The translations under genes and the position numbers were made by a program. From assembly GCA_027488865.1 (NCBI GenBank), contig JAIYAU010000049.1, forward strand, positions 1-64,000: DNA of 64,000 bases, read 5' to 3'. Under the pieces are notes generated by a model. That model was not told the origin of the DNA and ran no database searches. It was given only the letters and a program-made list of their open reading frames with translations. This stretch comes from Cytophagaceae bacterium. GTDB lineage: Bacteria > Bacteroidota > Bacteroidia > Cytophagales > UBA9547. Shown here piece after piece: positions 2,884-11,532 of this stretch; within the stretch, counting starts at the first letter, position 1; each line of letters starts with the position of its first letter.

Positions 2884-3468
2884 ATGAGTTCACTATTAAA
2901 ACAACAATTTGAAGACATTATCAGTCTTACTGACCAAGAATTTGAATATATATTAACTCACTTCACTGAAAAAAAATTAAAAAAGAATTCATTCTTGTTG
3001 CAAGTGGGACAACAGAATGTTTGCAAATATTTTGTCGCCAAAGGCATCCTAAAATCTTACTACATTGACAAAAGTGGTAAGGAGCATATTTTGCAATTTG
3101 CAGAACCTGATTGGTGGATTACTGACTATAAGGCTTTTTTTAATGAGACAGAAGCCAGTATATATGTGGACTGCATAACAGATTGCGAAATATTATCCAT
3201 CACAAAAGAAAATTTAGAAAAACTAGCAAAAGAATTTCATAAATTGGAGCATTTCTTTCGTGTAAAATCTAATGCTGGCTATGTGGCTTCTCAGGAAAGA
3301 ATTTTATCAATGCTAAAATTAACTGCTACAGAACGTTTTGACCATTTTTTAGACCAGTACCCAAATTTCATGCTAAAAATCCCCAAATATCTTATTGCCT
3401 CTTACATTGGCGTATCCAGAGAAATGTTGAGCCGAATGACCAAAAATGTGATAAACCACACACAATAA
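2884..3468 (+). CDS. Crp/Fnr family transcription regulator
   Basis: The protein has 194 residues, the usual size for Bacteroidota Crp/Fnr-like regulators. Residues about 25-120 form the cyclic-nucleotide-binding-like beta barrel (KKNSFLLQVGQ, FVAKGILKSYYIDKSGKEH). A dimer helix follows, then a helix-turn-helix near 165-190 (IPKYLIASYIGVSREMLSRM). The Fnr iron-sulfur cysteines are absent. The next gene, 83 bp downstream on the same strand, encodes a small YdhR-like monooxygenase-fold protein that it might regulate, which is inference from adjacency. The effector is unknown. Confidence 0.85.
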   Translation: MSSLLKQQFEDIISLTDQEFEYILTHFTEKKLKKNSFLLQVGQQNVCKYFVAKGILKSYYIDKSGKEHILQFAEPDWWITDYKAFFNETEASIYVDCITDCEILSITKENLEKLAKEFHKLEHFFRVKSNAGYVASQERILSMLKLTATERFDHFLDQYPNFMLKIPKYLIASYIGVSREMLSRMTKNVINHTQ

Positions 3469-3551
3469 AAGTGTGAAACTTCATTTTTGAACTCATAAAC
3501 ATATTGGAATTTTGCAACGCAATTTTGCAGCAAATTTAAATATTCATAAAA

Positions 3552-3857
3552 ATGAAGTACGGACAAATTTTCTCCTATCGCCTTGAATTAGATTCAAAAG
3601 AGGAGTACATCGAAAAGTGGGTAAAACCTTATGCAGAACCCATCGCAAAAGTAAAGGGACTTATATCAAAAGTTTGGATGTCAAATCATGAAGATTTGTA
3701 TTCAAGTTTTTATCTTTGGGAAACCAAGGAAGACATGGATAATTTCATGAACTCTACAATGATTGCTGAAGTGGCACAATTACCATTTCTTAAAGACTTA
3801 AATATTGTATCAATTCCAGTAGTTATTGAAGCATCAGCAATTACAAGAGGGGTATAA
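3552..3857 (+). CDS. YdhR-like ferredoxin-fold protein (putative monooxygenase)
   Basis: The 101-residue protein has the pattern of small dimeric alpha-beta-barrel proteins of the YdhR/antibiotic-biosynthesis-monooxygenase type. It has an N-terminal strand ending in the helix KEEYIEKWVKPYAEPIAKVKGLISKVW, then a strand (SSFYLWETKEDMDNFM) and a helix with a late PFLKDLNIVSIPVVIEA segment. Members either oxidise small aromatics without cofactor or have unknown roles. It follows the Crp-like regulator and is itself followed, 19 bp after its stop, by a group II intron remnant. Family assignment is moderate and no substrate can be proposed. Confidence 0.65.
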   Translation: MKYGQIFSYRLELDSKEEYIEKWVKPYAEPIAKVKGLISKVWMSNHEDLYSSFYLWETKEDMDNFMNSTMIAEVAQLPFLKDLNIVSIPVVIEASAITRGV

Positions 3858-4289: not shown

Positions 4290-4865
4290 ATGCTTAAACA
4301 GATCGAAGAGTTTATTTATCAAAGAGTAAAAACAGCCAAAGAAAATGAGGTTAAGGATATTATAGCTATTTTCAATGAACAATTGTATCAAAAAGGCACT
4401 TTTTTTAAAGAACAAGATACCATTATCCAAGAGTTAGGTTTTTTGGTAAGCGGAAGTGTTCGCTCATATTTAATAAATGAAAACTTGGATGAAATAACAG
4501 ACGCCATACTAGAGCCAAACAATTTTTTATCTGATATCATCAGCGTACGAACCAAAGAAAAGTCACCCATAATTATTGAAATTTTAGAGCCATCTAAAAT
4601 ACTGGTTGCTAAAATGGAAGATGTATGGGATTTATTAAATCATAACGTAACCTTTAATATTCTCCTACGTGAGTACATGGGTGATAGAGCAATGCAATTG
4701 GTAAAATATCATCTATTATTTTTAAACGGCTCGGCTAAACAACGTTACCAATATCTAATATCAACAAATCCATCTTTATTAAAAAAATATCCACTCAAAT
4801 TTATTGCCTCAATGATTGGCGTTACTCCTACACAATTGAGCAGGATAAGGGGAGATAAGTCTTAA
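4290..4865 (+). CDS. Crp/Fnr family transcription regulator (second)
   Basis: The protein has 191 residues. It has a cNMP-binding-like barrel in the first two thirds (YQKGTFFKEQDTIIQELGFLVSGSVRSYLINE, then a region with ILEPSKILVAKMEDV) and a C-terminal helix-turn-helix (YPLKFIASMIGVTPTQLSRI). It is only distantly similar to the regulator at 2884-3468. A perfect 18-bp palindrome lies 11 bp after its stop, just upstream of the DUF2490 gene, and may be its operator. By position it is the natural candidate to control the sulfatase gene set that follows, which is an inference. Confidence 0.85.
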   Translation: MLKQIEEFIYQRVKTAKENEVKDIIAIFNEQLYQKGTFFKEQDTIIQELGFLVSGSVRSYLINENLDEITDAILEPNNFLSDIISVRTKEKSPIIIEILEPSKILVAKMEDVWDLLNHNVTFNILLREYMGDRAMQLVKYHLLFLNGSAKQRYQYLISTNPSLLKKYPLKFIASMIGVTPTQLSRIRGDKS

Positions 4866-4876
4866 ATGATTTATTT

Positions 4877-4894
4877 TCTCAACATATGTTGAGA
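4877..4894. promoter_or_regulatory. Perfect 18-bp palindrome, candidate operator
   Basis: TCTCAACATATGTTGAGA is a perfect dyad with no spacer. It lies between the Crp-like regulator and the DUF2490 gene, with its centre about 31 bp upstream of a TACCTTTG -7 element. It overlaps the place expected for the -33 region. Crp/Fnr regulators bind palindromes of about this size, so the neighbouring regulator may bind here. No T-run follows, so it is not a terminator. Confidence 0.55.
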
Positions 4895-4915
4895 GCTTCT
4901 GGTTTGCGCCTTTTT

Positions 4916-4923
4916 TACCTTTG
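4916..4923 (+). promoter_or_regulatory. Bacteroidota-type -7 element (TACCTTTG)
   Basis: TACCTTTG fits the TAnnTTTG consensus of the major Bacteroidota sigma factor and lies 28 bp before the DUF2490 start codon. A TTG at 4889-4891 could act as -33, though the spacing of 24 bp is slightly long. That TTG lies within the 18-bp palindrome, which would allow direct repression or activation. Confidence 0.5.
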
Positions 4924-4950
4924 TAGCTAATAGTTTACGCTAAATAGGTA

Positions 4951-5664
4951 ATGAAAAATCCATTCTTATGTATTTGTAAAGAGAAAATGCTCCTGTTTAG
5001 GTCGATTTGTCTTCTTTGTTTTACAACAGTTAATGTAGCGTATAGCCAAAATGAGATTTTTCATGAATTAGCTTTTGAAAAGTCAATATTAGAAAATGAA
5101 AAATGGAAACTCTTGGGTGAGGTAAATTTTAAGCATCTATACAATGAGCCTGCTTGGAGGAGATGGGGAGCATCTATGTCTTGTATTCGAAAGATTAATA
5201 ATCTTAGTCTCTCAGCGGGCACAAATGGGTATTACACTTTTGACAAAAGTATCAAGAACTTTTTCGAACTACGTCCTTGGACTAATGTTCAGTTGAACCT
5301 ACCTATAACGAAACGTTTGATATGTAGACAAAGATTAAGATATGAATGGCGATTTTTTTATACTGAAGAAAGCAATTCAACTAAAGTTAATTACGGGCGA
5401 TTAAGGTATCAACTTGGTTTTGATATTCCCATTTCAAAAAATGAGGAAACTTTATGGAGGCTCAGACCCTTTTGTGAATTGTTTTTTATAAAAGATCCAG
5501 CAAATTTTGAGCGATTTTCAAATGAAAGAGATTTTGGCTTATTGGCAATTAAGCGTTTTAAGAATGAAAATGAATTATCCTTTGGTTTTACAAGCGAAGT
5601 CTATTATGACCTAAACGAGAAGCGTGAATTCGGATATCTTATAATGCTTGGCTACTCTTTTTAA
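4951..5664 (+). CDS. DUF2490 outer-membrane beta-barrel protein
   Basis: The 237-residue protein has a signal peptide (hydrophobic LLFRSICLLCFTTVNVAYSQ; cleavage likely after AYSQ). A series of amphipathic strands with many aromatic and charged residues follows, as in DUF2490 proteins (WKLLGEVNFKHLYNEPAWRRWG, RLICRQRLRYEWRFFY). It ends with a C-terminal Phe after GYLIMLGYSF, the usual outer-membrane barrel end. The start may be Met1 or Met13, which gives a more normal signal peptide. It is the first gene after the candidate operator and precedes the formylglycine-enzyme gene by 119 bp. The transport role is unknown. Confidence 0.75.
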   Translation: MKNPFLCICKEKMLLFRSICLLCFTTVNVAYSQNEIFHELAFEKSILENEKWKLLGEVNFKHLYNEPAWRRWGASMSCIRKINNLSLSAGTNGYYTFDKSIKNFFELRPWTNVQLNLPITKRLICRQRLRYEWRFFYTEESNSTKVNYGRLRYQLGFDIPISKNEETLWRLRPFCELFFIKDPANFERFSNERDFGLLAIKRFKNENELSFGFTSEVYYDLNEKREFGYLIMLGYSF

Positions 5665-5783
5665 TTTTATTTGTTTCAAGAAAAAGGGTAGCTAAATTAA
5701 ATTTCTCAAACCATATACCATTAGTTAGAAATTTATGCAATTTATTTTGAATTATTGTGGTGCATGCCTTCATATGGAAATCT

Positions 5784-6389
5784 ATGTGTAACTTTTGGAG
5801 AAGAGTCAAAGTAGTTCTGTTGACTTTTATTGCATTGTTGTTTTCTTGCCAAACAGAATCTTCGAAATCAAATAAAAAGATTGAGGTTGTAACGTACAAA
5901 CAATTCAAAGAATTTGTAAAAGGTACTGGTTATGTCACTGATGCAGAAAAGTTTGGATGGTCTATTGTTCAAAAAGACATTTATAATTTCTCTAAAGTTC
6001 AAGGTGCTAATTGGAAAATGCCTGATGGGCAAAATTTACCACAAATGGATAATTTACCCGTTACACAAATTAGTTATAACGACGCATTGGCTTATTGTAA
6101 CTGGTCTGGAACGACACTTCCTTCTTACGAACAATATTGGGAATTAATAAAAGATGATAACAAAAAAATTATTACTGATAATAAAGCCACAATTTCAGAA
6201 GTACAAAAAGTAAATATTCTAGGCAATGTTTGGGAAATTACTCGCACAGAAAAAGGAAATGAGATACGATTGGCGGGTGGTTCCTTGTTTTGTTCTTCTA
6301 ACACTTGCAATGGCACCTCTAAAGAGCGAGAAGTTTATATTGATAAACAAACGGGGAATATCCACATCGGATTTGCCGTAATTAAATAA
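5784..6389 (+). CDS. Compact lipoprotein formylglycine-generating enzyme (SUMF1/FGE-sulfatase domain)
   Basis: From the ATG at 5784 the protein has 201 residues. It has a lipoprotein signal (VVLLTFIALLFSC, lipid Cys22) and a short FGE-sulfatase domain. Family blocks seen are YKQFKEFVKGTGYVTDAEKFGWS (38-60), LPVTQISYNDALAYCNWSGTTLPS (91-114), LGNVWEIT (147-153) and the final RLAGGSLFC..NTC. The cysteines 170 and 175 have the C-x4-C spacing of the copper-binding catalytic pair of aerobic FGEs, which convert a sulfatase cysteine to formylglycine. The usual first strand and much of the long middle loop are missing, so the domain is well below the usual 250-300 residues. A sulfatase with the matching CxPSR site lies three genes downstream. 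A start at the GTG of 5757 is possible but less likely. Confidence 0.8.
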   Translation: MCNFWRRVKVVLLTFIALLFSCQTESSKSNKKIEVVTYKQFKEFVKGTGYVTDAEKFGWSIVQKDIYNFSKVQGANWKMPDGQNLPQMDNLPVTQISYNDALAYCNWSGTTLPSYEQYWELIKDDNKKIITDNKATISEVQKVNILGNVWEITRTEKGNEIRLAGGSLFCSSNTCNGTSKEREVYIDKQTGNIHIGFAVIK

Positions 6390-6536
6390 AAATAGATAAA
6401 GGCAAAATTTTTATAAATACAGTAATTTTTAAAAGATAAGTAGTAAGAAAATTAGAGCTCTTCCGATTTTTCAACATTTGTAGAGGGTAGTTTTGAACTT
6501 AATAGTGTTTTTTTGTAAAAATTAATTAAAAACTAC

Positions 6537-7067
6537 ATGAAACTTTTTACTAAAGAAATGGCAGTAATGAACCGTAATTTAATGCGTTCAAAAAATATCT
6601 ACTTCTTAATTACCCTTTTTGTAGTGTTGCACTCTTCAGCTTCATTTGCCCAGTCATATCCAACAGAAATAGAAGTTTTTCAGAAGGTTTTTGGAATTGA
6701 AAAAAAAGTAGCTCTTGCAAATTTCATGAAAATGGATGCATCCAATAACAATTTCTGGAAAATCTATGACCAATATGAAACAAAACGCCAAGAACTTGGA
6801 AAAGAGAGAATTGCAATAATTATGGATTACGCCGGTAATTACACAAACCTTTCTGATGAAAAAATACTCGAATTATTTAAACGTTCGGAATCTCTTAAAA
6901 AATCATTTGACAAATTACAAACCACCTATTTCAATAAAATTAAAAAGGAAGTGGGTATTGGCAAGGCAGCTCAATTTTGGCAGTTTGAGGGATATATTTA
7001 TACAATGACTCAAGCTGAAATTTATTCTAAAATACCATTTATTGGTGAAAACCCGAACGGAAAATAG
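6537..7067 (+). CDS. Secreted Spy/CpxP-like helical protein
   Basis: The protein has 176 residues with a signal peptide ending in SSASFAQ (about residue 39). Internal Met residues at 11 and 16 would give a more normal signal length, so the true start may be later than 6537. The mature part is highly charged and helical (YETKRQELGKERIAIIMDYAGNYTNLSDEKILELFKRSESLKKSFDKL), with the layout of periplasmic Spy/CpxP-like or DUF-type helical-hairpin proteins. It lies between the FGE lipoprotein and the DJ-1-like gene on the same strand. A chaperone-like periplasmic role is a guess from fold only. Confidence 0.6.
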   Translation: MKLFTKEMAVMNRNLMRSKNIYFLITLFVVLHSSASFAQSYPTEIEVFQKVFGIEKKVALANFMKMDASNNNFWKIYDQYETKRQELGKERIAIIMDYAGNYTNLSDEKILELFKRSESLKKSFDKLQTTYFNKIKKEVGIGKAAQFWQFEGYIYTMTQAEIYSKIPFIGENPNGK

Positions 7068-7100
7068 TAAGCAAATACTAACTTTTTAACTTAAATTATC

Positions 7101-7961
7101 ATGAAGTTAAGCAAAAAAAATATTTATATCATTTGCGGAATAGCCGTAGTGTTGGTCTTATTTTTTATTTCTCTACCATTCATTTTGAAATCCCGTGGTT
7201 TTCACCCCGATGATCCTGACGGAGAAAAGTTTAATTTAAAAGGTAAAAAGGCTCTTATTGTTTCTACCAGCCACAATATACTGAATAGACCAGGTGAAAC
7301 TACAGGGCCTGCTACGGGTGTATTCGCATCTGAAATGACCATTCCTTACTATGAATTTTTAGATGCCAATATGGAAGTAGATATTGCCAGCATCAAAGGA
7401 GGAGAAGTTCCTATCGATCCTCAGTCTTTTTATTATTTTCTAGAATCGAAAGAAGATAAACGCTTTGAGCAAGATGAAGCCTTTCAAGCTAAAATAAAAA
7501 ACTCTGTCCCAATTGAAAAAGTAGATTTAAAAAACTACGATATCGTCTTTTTTGCTGGAGGATGGGGAGCGGCTTATGATATGAATTCGGAGATTGTATC
7601 CACTAAAGTTTCAGATGCCTATTATAATTCAGATGTAATTATGGGAAGCGTTTGTCACGGAGCGTTAGCCTTTACCAATGCAAAGGATAAAAATGGAGAT
7701 TATTTGATTAAGGGCAGACCTATGTCTGGAGTTACTCAAAAACAACTTGCTTCATTTGGTATTGAATTTACACCTTATCATCCTGAACAAGAGCTTAAAA
7801 AAGCAGGAGCTATTTACCAATGCAGTCATGAAAAACCCATTGACCAGTTCAATACCTATACAGTAGCTGACCAAGAAAAGCGTTTTATTACAGGTCAAAA
7901 TCAAAACTCAAGCCATGATACTGCTCAACTGATGATGAAAACTTTAATCGAAAAGAAATAA
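7101..7961 (+). CDS. Membrane-anchored DJ-1/PfpI family protein
   Basis: The protein has 286 residues. A single N-terminal transmembrane helix (about 8-30) precedes a DJ-1/PfpI (class I glutamine amidotransferase-like) domain. The nucleophile elbow GSVCHGALAF places Cys185 followed by His186, and Glu78 in VFASEMT fits the conserved acidic residue near it. This layout is closest to the Hsp31/glyoxalase III branch, which acts on methylglyoxal or as a chaperone. The short lead sequence and lack of a cleavage site suggest anchoring to the inner membrane with the domain outside. Its stop overlaps the sulfatase start (TAATG), so the two are translationally coupled. Confidence 0.8.
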   Translation: MKLSKKNIYIICGIAVVLVLFFISLPFILKSRGFHPDDPDGEKFNLKGKKALIVSTSHNILNRPGETTGPATGVFASEMTIPYYEFLDANMEVDIASIKGGEVPIDPQSFYYFLESKEDKRFEQDEAFQAKIKNSVPIEKVDLKNYDIVFFAGGWGAAYDMNSEIVSTKVSDAYYNSDVIMGSVCHGALAFTNAKDKNGDYLIKGRPMSGVTQKQLASFGIEFTPYHPEQELKKAGAIYQCSHEKPIDQFNTYTVADQEKRFITGQNQNSSHDTAQLMMKTLIEKK

Positions 7962-9739
7962 TGAAAAACGTACAGATTAAAACTAAAATAGTCTATTGGC
8001 TGCTTTTTTCTAGTTTAATAAATCCTGTATTGGGTCAAACGGATACAACTAAAAAGTCCAAACCAAATGTTGTACTAATATTAATTGATGATTCAGGGCT
8101 AATGGATCTTGGTGTCTATGGTGGTGAAGCCCGTACACCGAATATTGATAAGTTGGCTAATAATGGCATGATGTTTACCAATATGCACGCCTCTCCGGTA
8201 TGTGCACCTTCAAGGGCTATGCTTATGACAGGTACAGATAGTCATTTATGCGGTGTAGCCAATTTGCCCGAATTCCTTCCTCAAGAATACCAAACTAAGC
8301 CCGGCTATGCGGGTGTGTTGAATGATCGCGTGCAAACCATTGCCACTCGCTTGAAAGAAGCAGATTACAATACCTACATGACGGGTAAATGGCATTTAAA
8401 AAAAAAAGAAAAAACACTACCTTCTAGCAGAGGATTTGACCGTTCATTTATACTAGGAGGTTCTGGTGCAAGTAATTATGACAATCACGGTTATCTACCT
8501 ATGAAACCAATGGCACATTGGTATGCAGATGGTAAGGAGGTGGAGTTGCCTGAAGATTTCTATTCTTCTAAAACCTATATTGACAAAACTATAGAATTTC
8601 ATGAGGCGGAGCAGAAAAAGGACAACCCATTCTTTGCCTATATCGCCTTTCAAGCCATTCATGCACCCATACAAGCACCCAAGGAATTTGTAGATCATTA
8701 CAAAGAAATCTACAAAGAGGGTTGGAATAAACTGCGTCAAAAGCGATTCGAAAAGGCAAAACAACTAGGTTTTATACCTCAAGATGCCAAATTCGCTGAT
8801 GTTTTTCCAAAGTTCAAAAAATGGGAAGAATTGTCTCAAAAAGAAAAAGAATCGCATAGCACAAATATGGCAGTAACAGCCGGTATGCTTGAGGCCATGG
8901 ACTACCACATAGGGAGGTACATCGAGTATCTTACTCAAAAAGGATTGATGGAAAATACGATTTTTATTGTTACTTCCGATAATGGACCTGATGGCGCAGA
9001 CTATACACAGGGATTAATTTGGGCTAAAAAAAATGGTTACCATACAGATTTTGACAAGAATGGCGGAAAAGGATTTTTTGGGTTTATAGGTCCAGAGTTT
9101 GCCAATGCGGTGTCTTCTCCTTTTTCTTATTTTAAATATTACACTGGTGAAGGCGGATTAAGAGTTCCCCTTATCTTAAGCGGAAATAATATTCCAAAAA
9201 ATAAGCGTACCAATGTTTTTTCTTTTTTTACGGATATTGCTCCCACCATTTATGAAATTGCTGGATTATCTCCAAAAGCTAATGATGGATATGCTCCTAT
9301 TACAGGAAAAAGTATGGTGCCACATTTATTCAACCAAGCAGTACCTGTTTATGCTGCAAATGAAGGGGTAGGCTTAGAAGCAGCCGCAAGTTCTGCTTAC
9401 TTTTTGGATGGTTATAAGATTGTGAAGAACAATATTCCGCTGGGTGATACGGAATGGCATTTATACAATCTTGAAATAGACCCAAGTGAGCTCAATGATA
9501 TAGCTCAAGGGGAGCCTGATAGATTTCAAAAAATGTTAGCAGCTTACGAAGTCTATGCAAATAATGTGGGTGTTTTAGAAATGCCAGAAGGGTACTCGGC
9601 TCAAGGAACAGTAGCTAAAAAATCTTATTGGAAAATATTAATGAATTTTCTTCCCTACCTTCTTGCTATTGTGCTTGGGATCATTGGATTTTTCATTTGG
9701 AGGTACCAAAAAAATAATAAAACGGATGCAGGACAATAA
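7961..9739 (+). CDS. Membrane-anchored arylsulfatase-family sulfatase
   Basis: The 592-residue protein has a signal peptide (cleaved after VLGQ, residue 26) and a full sulfatase domain. Metal ligands Asp43-Asp44 lie in LILIDDSGLMD. The modification site is Cys81 in SPVCAPSRAMLMTG, which FGE converts to formylglycine. GKWH is at 142-145 and the second metal pair is Asp340-Asn341 in VTSDNGPDGA. It ends in a transmembrane helix (NFLPYLLAIVLGIIGFFIW) and a basic tail, so it is anchored by its C-terminus. The domain belongs to the arylsulfatase AtsA-like branch. The matching FGE lipoprotein is encoded in the same run. The substrate is unknown; polysaccharide or aryl sulfates are both possible. Confidence 0.92.
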   Translation: MKNVQIKTKIVYWLLFSSLINPVLGQTDTTKKSKPNVVLILIDDSGLMDLGVYGGEARTPNIDKLANNGMMFTNMHASPVCAPSRAMLMTGTDSHLCGVANLPEFLPQEYQTKPGYAGVLNDRVQTIATRLKEADYNTYMTGKWHLKKKEKTLPSSRGFDRSFILGGSGASNYDNHGYLPMKPMAHWYADGKEVELPEDFYSSKTYIDKTIEFHEAEQKKDNPFFAYIAFQAIHAPIQAPKEFVDHYKEIYKEGWNKLRQKRFEKAKQLGFIPQDAKFADVFPKFKKWEELSQKEKESHSTNMAVTAGMLEAMDYHIGRYIEYLTQKGLMENTIFIVTSDNGPDGADYTQGLIWAKKNGYHTDFDKNGGKGFFGFIGPEFANAVSSPFSYFKYYTGEGGLRVPLILSGNNIPKNKRTNVFSFFTDIAPTIYEIAGLSPKANDGYAPITGKSMVPHLFNQAVPVYAANEGVGLEAAASSAYFLDGYKIVKNNIPLGDTEWHLYNLEIDPSELNDIAQGEPDRFQKMLAAYEVYANNVGVLEMPEGYSAQGTVAKKSYWKILMNFLPYLLAIVLGIIGFFIWRYQKNNKTDAGQ

Positions 9740-10190
9740 TAATCATGTTTTTACGGAGATTGAGATCAATGCCACACCAGAGGAAGTGTGGAGCGTGCTG
9801 ACGGATTGGAACAAATTGAAAGCTTGGAGTTCTTCTTTTATTGGCATTTCTACAAATAAACCGATCAAAGGAGAAGAATTTGTTTCATACTTCAAAAATC
9901 CTCTGACAGGAGGGGTTTTGGAGTTGAAACATATTTGCACCGATTATGAAGAATGTAAAAAATTTGGCTGGTCGGGTGATATTATTGGTAGTATAAAAGA
10001 TCACCACATTTATTCTTTGGAGCCGACCATAAATGGCACTACCTTATTCAAACAGGAAGATGGATTGCATGGTAAACATAGTCAATTGCTAAATTTTATG
10101 GCAGAAAATCAAATGCTATCGATGTATAACAGGTTTAACCAAGAACTAAAAGAAAGAGTGGAAAATCTTTTTCCTAAATCAAATAATTAA
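9726..10190 (+). CDS. SRPBCC (START/Bet v1-like) domain protein
   Basis: From the ATG at 9726, which overlaps the end of the sulfatase gene by 14 bp, the protein has 154 residues. It shows the polyketide-cyclase-type START pattern: the opening FTEIEINATPEEVWSVLTDWNKLKAWS, a middle strand block, and a long C-terminal helix (LLNFMAENQMLSMYNRFNQELKERVENLF). These proteins bind hydrophobic ligands in a central pocket. The frame extends upstream to 9663, but that part reads through the sulfatase membrane segment and is not a likely start. It has no signal peptide. Overlap with the sulfatase gene implies one transcript. Confidence 0.8.
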   Translation: MQDNNNHVFTEIEINATPEEVWSVLTDWNKLKAWSSSFIGISTNKPIKGEEFVSYFKNPLTGGVLELKHICTDYEECKKFGWSGDIIGSIKDHHIYSLEPTINGTTLFKQEDGLHGKHSQLLNFMAENQMLSMYNRFNQELKERVENLFPKSNN

Positions 10191-10207
10191 TGTAAAGTAT
10201 CATAAAA

Positions 10208-11131
10208 ATGAGAAAAATTAACCCAATAATCAATTCAGTACTCATCCTAGTATTCATTAGTGTATTTTTTAGTGCTTGTGTGCCCGCAACTATAGCCACT
10301 ATAGCGGCAGTAAAAAGTAAAAAGCGAAGTCCTCGCAAACTTTATTTATCCGATTCAATCCCAGAAATAGATAAAACCAGAGAACCTAAAATATTAACGG
10401 CATTCTTTGGATTAGACAATGGCTTAACCTTCCGTGCAAGAGCAATATATAGAAAAGCACAAGGAAAAGATGGAATGCCTTTGGTATTCTCACATGAACT
10501 AGACCCTAAAACCCTTCAAGGTGCTGACTTTGCAGTTACTACCAAAAACGGGAAAGTATTTGTAGTAGAGGCAGCGAGCTTTCTTCCCGCCAATGAAGAA
10601 TTTGAACTTAGAACGGTGCTTCTAATTGGTGAATTTGGCAATTATCCTGACAACCCAGCTGTATCTGTTGAAGTAGTAGGTGATTTGATGGCGAGAACTG
10701 GACAAAATTTTAAAGGACAAAGTATTAAGGTAATTCCCTTAGCAGAAGGGCCTATTTTGAGCTATGCCGAATATTTTACCTTCGATGAAAAATACCCTTA
10801 CATTAAAAAGGGAAAAGGATGCGATTGCCCGAAAGAGGAGACAAAAATGGTTGTAAAGGTAGTTTGGGCTGGTGGGGTGAGAGCTACTAATGGTAAAGAA
10901 CTTGGAGCGAATGAATTGAAAGATTTTGTAGTAACCCTAGTTAACGGAACAGACACAACAAAAGTAAATCCTTTTACACTAGCAGACTTAGGCGATAGTG
11001 AAAACAACATAGATTTGTGCATCAAGGAATCAGGAATTCCAATCTTAATCCAAGTAAATGAAGGTATTGCGATTGACCCAAATAATGATAAAAACCCTGC
11101 GGCAAAAATTAAAGTATTGAGCCGGTGGTAA
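10208..11131 (+). CDS. Lipoprotein of unknown function
   Basis: The protein has 307 residues and a lipoprotein signal peptide (SVLILVFISVFFSAC, lipid Cys24). The mature part is beta-rich, with no catalytic motif that I recognise. It has a CDCP motif near residue 210 and a Lys/Arg-rich segment after the lipid anchor (AAVKSKKRSPRK). It begins 17 bp after the SRPBCC gene and is the last gene of the sulfatase run. No terminator is evident after it; the next 120 bp lead into the IS110 remnant. Confidence 0.7.
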   Translation: MRKINPIINSVLILVFISVFFSACVPATIATIAAVKSKKRSPRKLYLSDSIPEIDKTREPKILTAFFGLDNGLTFRARAIYRKAQGKDGMPLVFSHELDPKTLQGADFAVTTKNGKVFVVEAASFLPANEEFELRTVLLIGEFGNYPDNPAVSVEVVGDLMARTGQNFKGQSIKVIPLAEGPILSYAEYFTFDEKYPYIKKGKGCDCPKEETKMVVKVVWAGGVRATNGKELGANELKDFVVTLVNGTDTTKVNPFTLADLGDSENNIDLCIKESGIPILIQVNEGIAIDPNNDKNPAAKIKVLSRW

Positions 11132-11252
11132 AAAATCAGATTCAATAGAAATTAAACAGTCTTTAAATTATTAGATTAAAAGTTGAGAAATTGACACCCC
11201 ATGGTGCAAGCGAGACGCTCATATCTTTGATAAGTTAAGAAAAAGTGCTTTT

Positions 11253-11319
11253 TATTTCCTCGGTCTGTGGCACACAGAACGAAAAGTTAATGACCTGTGT
11301 GCCACAGGCCATGGAGGAA
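11253..11319 (+). repeat. GTGGCACACAG palindromic repeat, copy B
   Basis: This copy matches copy A (1202-1268) at 66 of 67 positions, including the CTGTGGCACACAG/CTGTGTGCCACAG stem and the terminal CATGGAGGAA. Here the terminal ATG opens directly into the truncated IS110 transposase frame, so the repeat marks the left edge of that remnant. Confidence 0.8.
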
Positions 11320-11532
11320 AAAATAGCCCAAGCCATCGAGCAAGATGAAGTATTGAAGAAAAAGCATGCCTCCGTAACCTCCATTAAAGGAGTTGGCTTA
11401 ATGGCTTTTGCCGTGGTAGTGGCTGAGACTGACGGTTTTGCACTGATCAACAACCAACGACAGCTCGCCAGTTATGCAGGCTATGACATCGTTGAAAATC
11501 AGTCTGGTAAAAAAGTGGACCGTTGGCAGTAA
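11311..11532 (+). pseudogene. IS110-family transposase fragment (Transposase_20 region)
   Basis: The frame contains SIKGVGLMAFAVVVAETDGFALINNQRQLASYAGYDIVENQSGKKV, the typical C-terminal domain of IS110-type transposases (SI.GVG...A....ETDGF..F.N..QL.SYAGLD.VE.QSG). The N-terminal RuvC-like DEDD half is absent and replaced by palindromic repeat B. The C-terminus is cut right after SGKKVD, before the usual KG(N)..LR block containing the conserved serine. It is therefore an inactive internal fragment of about 73 residues. Confidence 0.85.

Follow-up and report, generated by a model that had tools for sequence, protein, structure and literature searches.

A short, exported relative of formylglycine-generating enzymes shares a recurrent gene set with a sulfatase and a DJ-1 protein in Bacteroidota

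Introduction

The known enzymes closest to the one considered here are the aerobic, copper-dependent formylglycine-generating enzymes (FGEs), known from SUMF1 and from Streptomyces, Mycobacterium and Thermomonospora. In human FGE, mutation of Cys336, Cys341, Ser333, His337 or Tyr340 alters activity, and the prokaryotic enzyme is described as acting in the reducing cytosol (PMC4505483). PorK, GldK and GldJ are FGE-fold lipoproteins of the Bacteroidota envelope that lack the copper cysteines and serve as structural hubs, being parts of the T9SS and the gliding machinery (PMC12421860). Two further groups are relevant, the arylsulfatases of the Pseudomonas aeruginosa type (1hdh) and the DJ-1 proteins of the Hsp31/glyoxalase III group (4p5p, 1u9c, yeast Hsp31). 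The open-access literature gave no report of a lipoprotein or periplasmic FGE, nor of a DJ-1-sulfatase unit.

Here we analyse a gene cluster at positions 4290-11131 of the window, a stretch of 64,000 nucleotides from a Cytophagaceae bacterium. The cluster encodes a short FGE homologue that shares with the aerobic enzymes the GGS-x2-C-x4-C, GNVW and TxDAExFG motifs, the link to a CxPSR sulfatase and sequence homology. It differs from them in being about 100 residues shorter, in lacking the equivalents of His337 and Tyr340 as well as the ANxWQGxFP..DGF block, which we take to be the first calcium site of human FGE, and in carrying an export signal where the aerobic prokaryotic enzyme is described as cytosolic. 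Unlike PorK, GldK and GldJ, with which it shares fold and envelope lipoprotein nature, it has the Cys pair. The full-length lipoprotein FGEs of the same order (L014-L040), some of them beside sulfatases, resemble it in the lipobox, the C-x4-C-H-G motif and the MHxGF ending; they possess the N-terminal part and the ANxWQGxFP block, whereas the short clade, on a long stem, is without both. The window sulfatase is homologous to 1hdh over its full length and has the same Cys-type motif, but adds a signal peptide, a C-terminal membrane anchor and a coupled DJ-1 gene. The DJ-1 protein is related to the Hsp31/glyoxalase III proteins over the full domain and has their Cys-His-Glu site, but is anchored, probably to the inner membrane on its outer side, and its gene overlaps the sulfatase gene.

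Results

Organization of the cluster

All genes of the cluster lie on the + strand, and every open reading frame (ORF) was located where a sequence-only reading of this DNA had placed it. The first encodes a CRP/FNR-type regulator of 191 aa (CRP2, 4290-4865), whose Pfam match to cNMP_binding (26.5 bits) is slightly below the cutoff, and the second an exported DUF2490 protein, a probable beta-barrel (4951-5664; PF10677, 53.2 bits). The short FGE gene follows, running from 5757 to 6389 if started at a GTG or from 5784 to 6389 if started at an ATG (201 aa). Next are ORF6537, encoding a small exported protein of 176 aa and unassigned family (6537-7067), the DJ-1 gene (7101-7961; PF01965, 30.6 bits), the sulfatase gene (7961-9739; PF00884, 187.8 bits), a gene for an SRPBCC (Polyketide_cyc2) protein (9726-10190; PF10604, 34.0 bits) and LIP, encoding a lipoprotein of 307 aa and unassigned family (10208-11131). 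Pfam searches of ORF6537 and of LIP gave no match, nor did an Rfam search of the window. The DJ-1 and sulfatase genes overlap by 1 base (TAATG at 7959-7963), which bears out the coupling previously proposed for them, and the SRPBCC start at 9726 probably creates a 14-base overlap with the end of the sulfatase gene. Just 5' of the cluster (2884-3857) lie a second CRP-like regulator and a YdhR-type monooxygenase, and an IS110-type transposase fragment is found directly 3' of it (11245-11532).

The short FGE as sole visible maturase candidate

The sulfatase is an arylsulfatase of S1 type with a signal peptide; the nearest solved structure is arylsulfatase 1hdh (E 1.5e-95). Its predicted CAPSR target was found as Cys81 in SPVCAPSR, and the Cys-type S1 signature CxPSRxxxxTG corresponds to SPVCAPSRAMLMTG. 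In the window's genome (4.33 Mb, 99.98% complete) it is the only PF00884 sulfatase. Five PF03781 proteins are present in this genome and C-x4-C occurs in the short FGE only; the other four (L001-L003, L005) are GldJ/GldK-like and without the Cys pair, L001 being followed by a GldL-like gene and L002 and L003 resembling GldJ as judged by reading the sequences. With NCBIfam TIGR03942 (cutoff 349.45 bits) as the criterion for anaerobic maturases (anSME), no protein of the genome scored above the cutoff, the best being L007 at 105.3 bits. A full-length FGE encoded elsewhere had been named as the finding that would speak against a role of the short one; this genome holds no full-length Cys-pair FGE and no anSME above the cutoff, and the short FGE is its sole visible maturase candidate.

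No C-x4-C FGE other than the short one was found in the genomes of its orthologues L041, L042 and L043, and in these, as in the genomes of L044 and G160, no anSME match exceeds the cutoff. The L042 and L043 genomes each encode a Cys-type exported sulfatase, with no second Cys-pair FGE found. As completeness is not stated for the L041-L044 genomes, absence from them is weaker evidence than absence from the window's genome. It is improbable, in our estimate, that another maturase acts here, whether a cytosolic enzyme or an unrecognised radical SAM protein such as L007, or that the sulfatase stays unmodified and acts weakly. L007 is indeed SPASM-like and reaches 105 bits with the anSME model, but this is far under the 349-bit cutoff, the best matches in the other short-FGE genomes are of 0-111 bits, and its gene (G000:C25:142414-143433) is found on a different contig, next to an unrelated one. 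An exported protein is encoded beside L007.

A conserved gene set in shuffled order

Searching genome contigs by sequence gave four orthologues of the short FGE (L041-L044; 59-72% identity). The gene order is CRP2, DJ1, SULF, FGE in L042, with gaps of 2 and 5 bases among the last three, and CRP2, LIP, DJ1, SULF, FGE in L043, with DJ1 and SULF overlapping and 14 bases to FGE. L044 has the entire gene set of the window, rearranged as CRP2, ORF6537, DJ1, a gene for an outer-membrane-type protein, SULF, SRPBCC, DUF2490, LIP, FGE. Two more genomes carry related clusters, ordered LIP, CRP2, DJ1, SULF, DUF2490, FGE in G160 (L096) and ORF6537, DJ1, SULF, SRPBCC, DUF2490, LIP, FGE in G876 (L124; G876:C14:272000-290000), the latter placed only as same phylum. 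In L041 an intact short FGE gene stands beside fragments of CRP2 and DUF2490 only.

The accessory genes recur in similar positions. A CRP2 orthologue is found near the DJ1 or sulfatase gene in L042, L043, L044 and L096 and near the short FGE gene in L041, and DUF2490 orthologues occur in L041, L044, L096 and L124. ORF6537 has an orthologue beside DJ1 in L044 (42% identity) and L124 (67% over 49 aa), and SRPBCC orthologues (74-75% identical) follow the sulfatase gene in the same two clusters. Orthologues of LIP (60-77% identical) are present in L043, L044, L096 and L124, directly before the short FGE gene in L044 and L124. Conservation of gene order had been proposed as a check on the unit: the set recurs in five other genomes (L042, L043, L044, G160, G876), but its order is shuffled, and DJ1, SULF and FGE are tightly linked in L042 and L043. 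That the members stay together while their order changes points to shared function rather than to inheritance as a single fixed block. In a set of 390 genomes of the order, this DJ-1 (E<=1e-40) occurs in the two genomes that carry a short FGE and in no other, a match whose probability by chance is, by arithmetic, about 1 in 76,000. No relative was found on viral contigs; plasmids carry relatives of DJ-1 and of the sulfatase, all below 60% identity.

Two of these clusters contain broken genes. In G160 the short FGE gene (L096:10463-11034) has a one-base frameshift and the sulfatase genes remain; in G876 the DJ-1 gene carries a frameshift and the DUF2490 and FGE genes a stop, with sulfatase and SRPBCC intact. 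These breaks may be assembly or sequencing errors or may reflect decay; if the decay in G876 is real, an intact sulfatase without maturase would count against an active short FGE. A separate full-length lipoprotein FGE gene of G160 (L099:3456-4400) has an in-frame TGA within GNVWE-W.

DJ-1 follows the sulfatase

The DJ-1 protein of the window has the N-terminal TM-like stretch expected from its description as a membrane protein, and among solved structures it is closest to 4p5p (E 7e-38), 1u9c and the Hsp31/glyoxalase III group. The Cys-His of GSVCHGA and the Glu of ASEMTIPY are invariant in eight homologues, the Glu motif reading SE(M/L)T(I/V)PYY across them.

The DJ1-SULF pair is the core of the gene set. 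It occurs as a second copy in the genome of L044 (L098) and twice in G476 with no short FGE nearby, a full-length Cys-pair lipoprotein FGE being encoded elsewhere in G476 (L107). Conversely, the related genomes G961 (L125) and G754 (L126) carry an intact short FGE gene alone, with no cluster genes nearby. From this stand-alone gene a Cys-type exported sulfatase was predicted in G961 and then found (L246): a lipoprotein sulfatase with CGPSRAVILTG, encoded in a glycosidase cluster about 0.6 Mb from the short FGE gene. It is the only sulfatase in the scanned 2.4 of 3.3 Mb (72%) of G961, a part in which no full-length Cys-pair FGE was found. The L041 genome similarly has one sulfatase, of CAPSR type, on another contig. 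Taken together, these distributions link the short FGE to Cys-type exported sulfatases in general and DJ-1 to one sulfatase type.

DJ-1 was rejected as a partner of the FGE, since the DJ1-SULF pair is present twice without nearby FGE in G476 and the short FGE occurs without DJ-1 in G961 and G754. The proposal that DJ-1 might take part in FGE chemistry accordingly found no support: it tracks the sulfatase, and each of DJ-1 and the short FGE occurs without the other. Reasonable options for its role would be the removal of a reactive carbonyl from the pathway or, as in Hsp31, that of a holdase for the unfolded exported sulfatase. The former is slightly favoured because of the genes near DJ1-SULF: those for an acyl-CoA dehydrogenase and a nitronate monooxygenase adjoin one pair in G476 (L104:8146-14264), and an acyl-CoA dehydrogenase gene is near the pair in G160 (L096:302-2353). 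Such neighbours would suggest that the pathway breaks down a hydrophobic sulfate ester. A single ORF of 683 aa covers the acyl-CoA dehydrogenase and the lipoprotein in L096.

The short FGEs form a distinct clade under purifying selection

The short FGE scored 62.7 bits with PF03781 (FGE-sulfatase; cutoff 23.3), matching profile positions 44-117 only, and a search of solved-structure sequences gave FGEs at E 2e-13, significant over the N-terminal half only. When an alignment of the five short FGEs (A3) was compared by hhalign with one of 22 full-length FGEs, all lipoproteins from the same order (A2), the match extended over columns 13-180 of 181 (probability 99.9, E 1.3e-33), with the GGS serine, GNVW and MHxGF all in line. 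Homology over the C-terminal half follows from this profile-profile alignment, as it puts C-x4-C on C-x4-C. AlphaFold2 models built from the five-sequence alignment, with and without the signal peptide, had pLDDT of 45 and 38 and are not interpretable.

The sequence-only reading had described an unusually small FGE with a C-x4-C copper pair. Both features were confirmed: the protein has 201 aa compared with 258-403 aa for full-length FGEs, and Cys170 and Cys175 (numbered from the ATG at 5784) are present after GGS in GGSLFCSSNTC. Ser167, Cys170, Cys175, Trp150 and His194 are invariant among the five aligned short FGEs, the cysteine pair is also kept in those of G876, G961 and G754, and the clade retains GNVW as well as the MHxGF His typical of Bacteroidota. 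Of the five human residues that affect activity, three are kept (Cys336, Cys341, Ser333); His337 is replaced by Ser and Tyr340 by Thr or Ile, His337 being absent from full-length Bacteroidota FGEs as well. Among 79 columns conserved at 90% or more in 28 full-length FGEs, 36 are kept in all five short FGEs, 12 are kept in part, 17 are changed and 14 deleted. The missing parts are about 45 N-terminal residues, a loop stretch before GGS and the ANxWQGxFP..DGF block, deleted in 5/5 short FGEs. The first calcium-site block is structural, with no catalytic role known, and the short FGE is thus an FGE-derived variant rather than a standard FGE.

The five short FGEs cluster together in a phylogenetic tree (support 100), with a stem of 3.8 changes per column; this group joins the Cys-pair FGEs and not GldJ/GldK, the exact joining point being unsure. 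To judge by their sequences, the short FGEs are a distinct clade of homologues of the full-length FGEs. The long stem and the lost residues make a changed function conceivable. The fold could have been repurposed, forming no formylglycine and instead binding an envelope protein, be it the sulfatase or some other, in the manner of SUMF2 and PorK/GldK/GldJ, or using its cysteines on another thiol. Such repurposing, which we regard as unlikely though worth serious attention, would fit the loss of the calcium-site block and of the His337 and Tyr340 equivalents, the stand-alone genes of G961 and G754 and the intact sulfatase beside a broken short FGE in G876, and PorK, GldK and GldJ demonstrate that FGE-fold lipoproteins of Bacteroidota can turn structural (PMC12421860). 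However, those three proteins are without the cysteines, whereas the short clade keeps both, and the Ser, in every copy, and several genomes show no other candidate for maturing their Cys-type sulfatases.

Selection on the short FGE was measured by codon-position differences only, because dS was saturated. Differences within the clade were about 0.24, 0.16 and 0.60 at codon positions 1, 2 and 3, and values ranged from 0.54 to 0.71 at third positions compared with 0.13-0.20 at second positions. This third-position excess indicates purifying selection, and makes it very hard to regard the short FGE as a decaying relic of a full-length enzyme carried in a mobile cluster. The G160 frameshift, the G876 stop, the truncated neighbours in L041 and the IS110 fragment beside the cluster would agree with decay, but the intact copies, which come from seven genomes, all have the same deletions, and 84 columns are invariant across the five intact copies aligned.

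Export signals of the cluster proteins

Signal peptides and TM segments were called throughout by eye and with simple patterns, no dedicated predictor being used. In the window the FGE has a lipobox (LLFS-C), DJ-1 a TM-like stretch after MKLSKK, and the sulfatase a signal peptide and a C-terminal TM-like stretch. In L042 a lipobox is found on DJ-1, the FGE has an ordinary signal peptide and the sulfatase lacks the C-terminal TM, so that the membrane anchor claimed for the sulfatase holds in the window but does not extend to this orthologue. On these predictions the kind of anchor varies between clusters and export is constant. Since all intact clusters examined encode FGE, sulfatase and DJ-1 with export signals, maturation in the envelope appears to be the best reading.

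A lipid anchor had been regarded as unusual for an FGE. The anchor itself stands, but it is not unusual in this order, as the lipobox Cys is aligned in 27/28 full-length FGE rows; an automatic lipobox pattern picked out 22/32 FGEs compared with 4/91 other ORFs of the same loci. Against the cytosolic view of prokaryotic FGE, envelope maturation of sulfatases may be the rule in this order.

Discussion

Recurrence of the cluster suggests activation of sulfatases outside the cytoplasm by an unusually small enzyme. We consider it reasonably probable that the short FGE is an active, reduced and exported copper-dependent formylglycine-generating enzyme. Homology, gene set, sole-candidate status and export signals form the observed basis of this model; catalysis, copper, the compartment of modification and the role of DJ-1 are inferred. 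The sulfatase would leave the cytoplasm unfolded via Sec, with Cys81 unmodified, and in the periplasm the lipid-anchored short FGE would bind it at the CAPSR stretch. Cu(I), coordinated by Cys170 and Cys175, would then bind the substrate thiol and O2, and Cys81 would be converted to formylglycine. The sulfatase would subsequently fold, remain membrane-bound via its C-terminal helix and hydrolyse a sulfate ester, while the DJ-1 domain, anchored in that compartment too, would work with the sulfatase and not with the FGE.

More broadly, Bacteroidota may use lipid-anchored FGEs for maturing their Cys-type sulfatases outside the cytoplasm; in one branch the enzyme would have shrunk to a mature length of about 170 residues, lost the first calcium site and become the smallest natural copper-dependent FGE. 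We put this forward tentatively, as a proposal that could nearly as well hold as fail. The lipobox-bearing FGEs found across the order, together with an exported sole candidate, make periplasmic formylglycine formation directly testable. An FGE core trimmed by about 100 residues would reveal which parts the copper and oxygen chemistry requires, and could also prove a handy small tool when exported proteins are to be aldehyde-tagged. The tie of this DJ-1 protein to one genetic partner may also shed light on the function of its family.

The full-length FGEs of the order (L014-L040) form a separate observation: nearly all Cys-pair members carry a lipoprotein signal, which may be the more general finding. 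A sulfatase gene lies within 1.5 kb at 7 of the 32 FGE loci.
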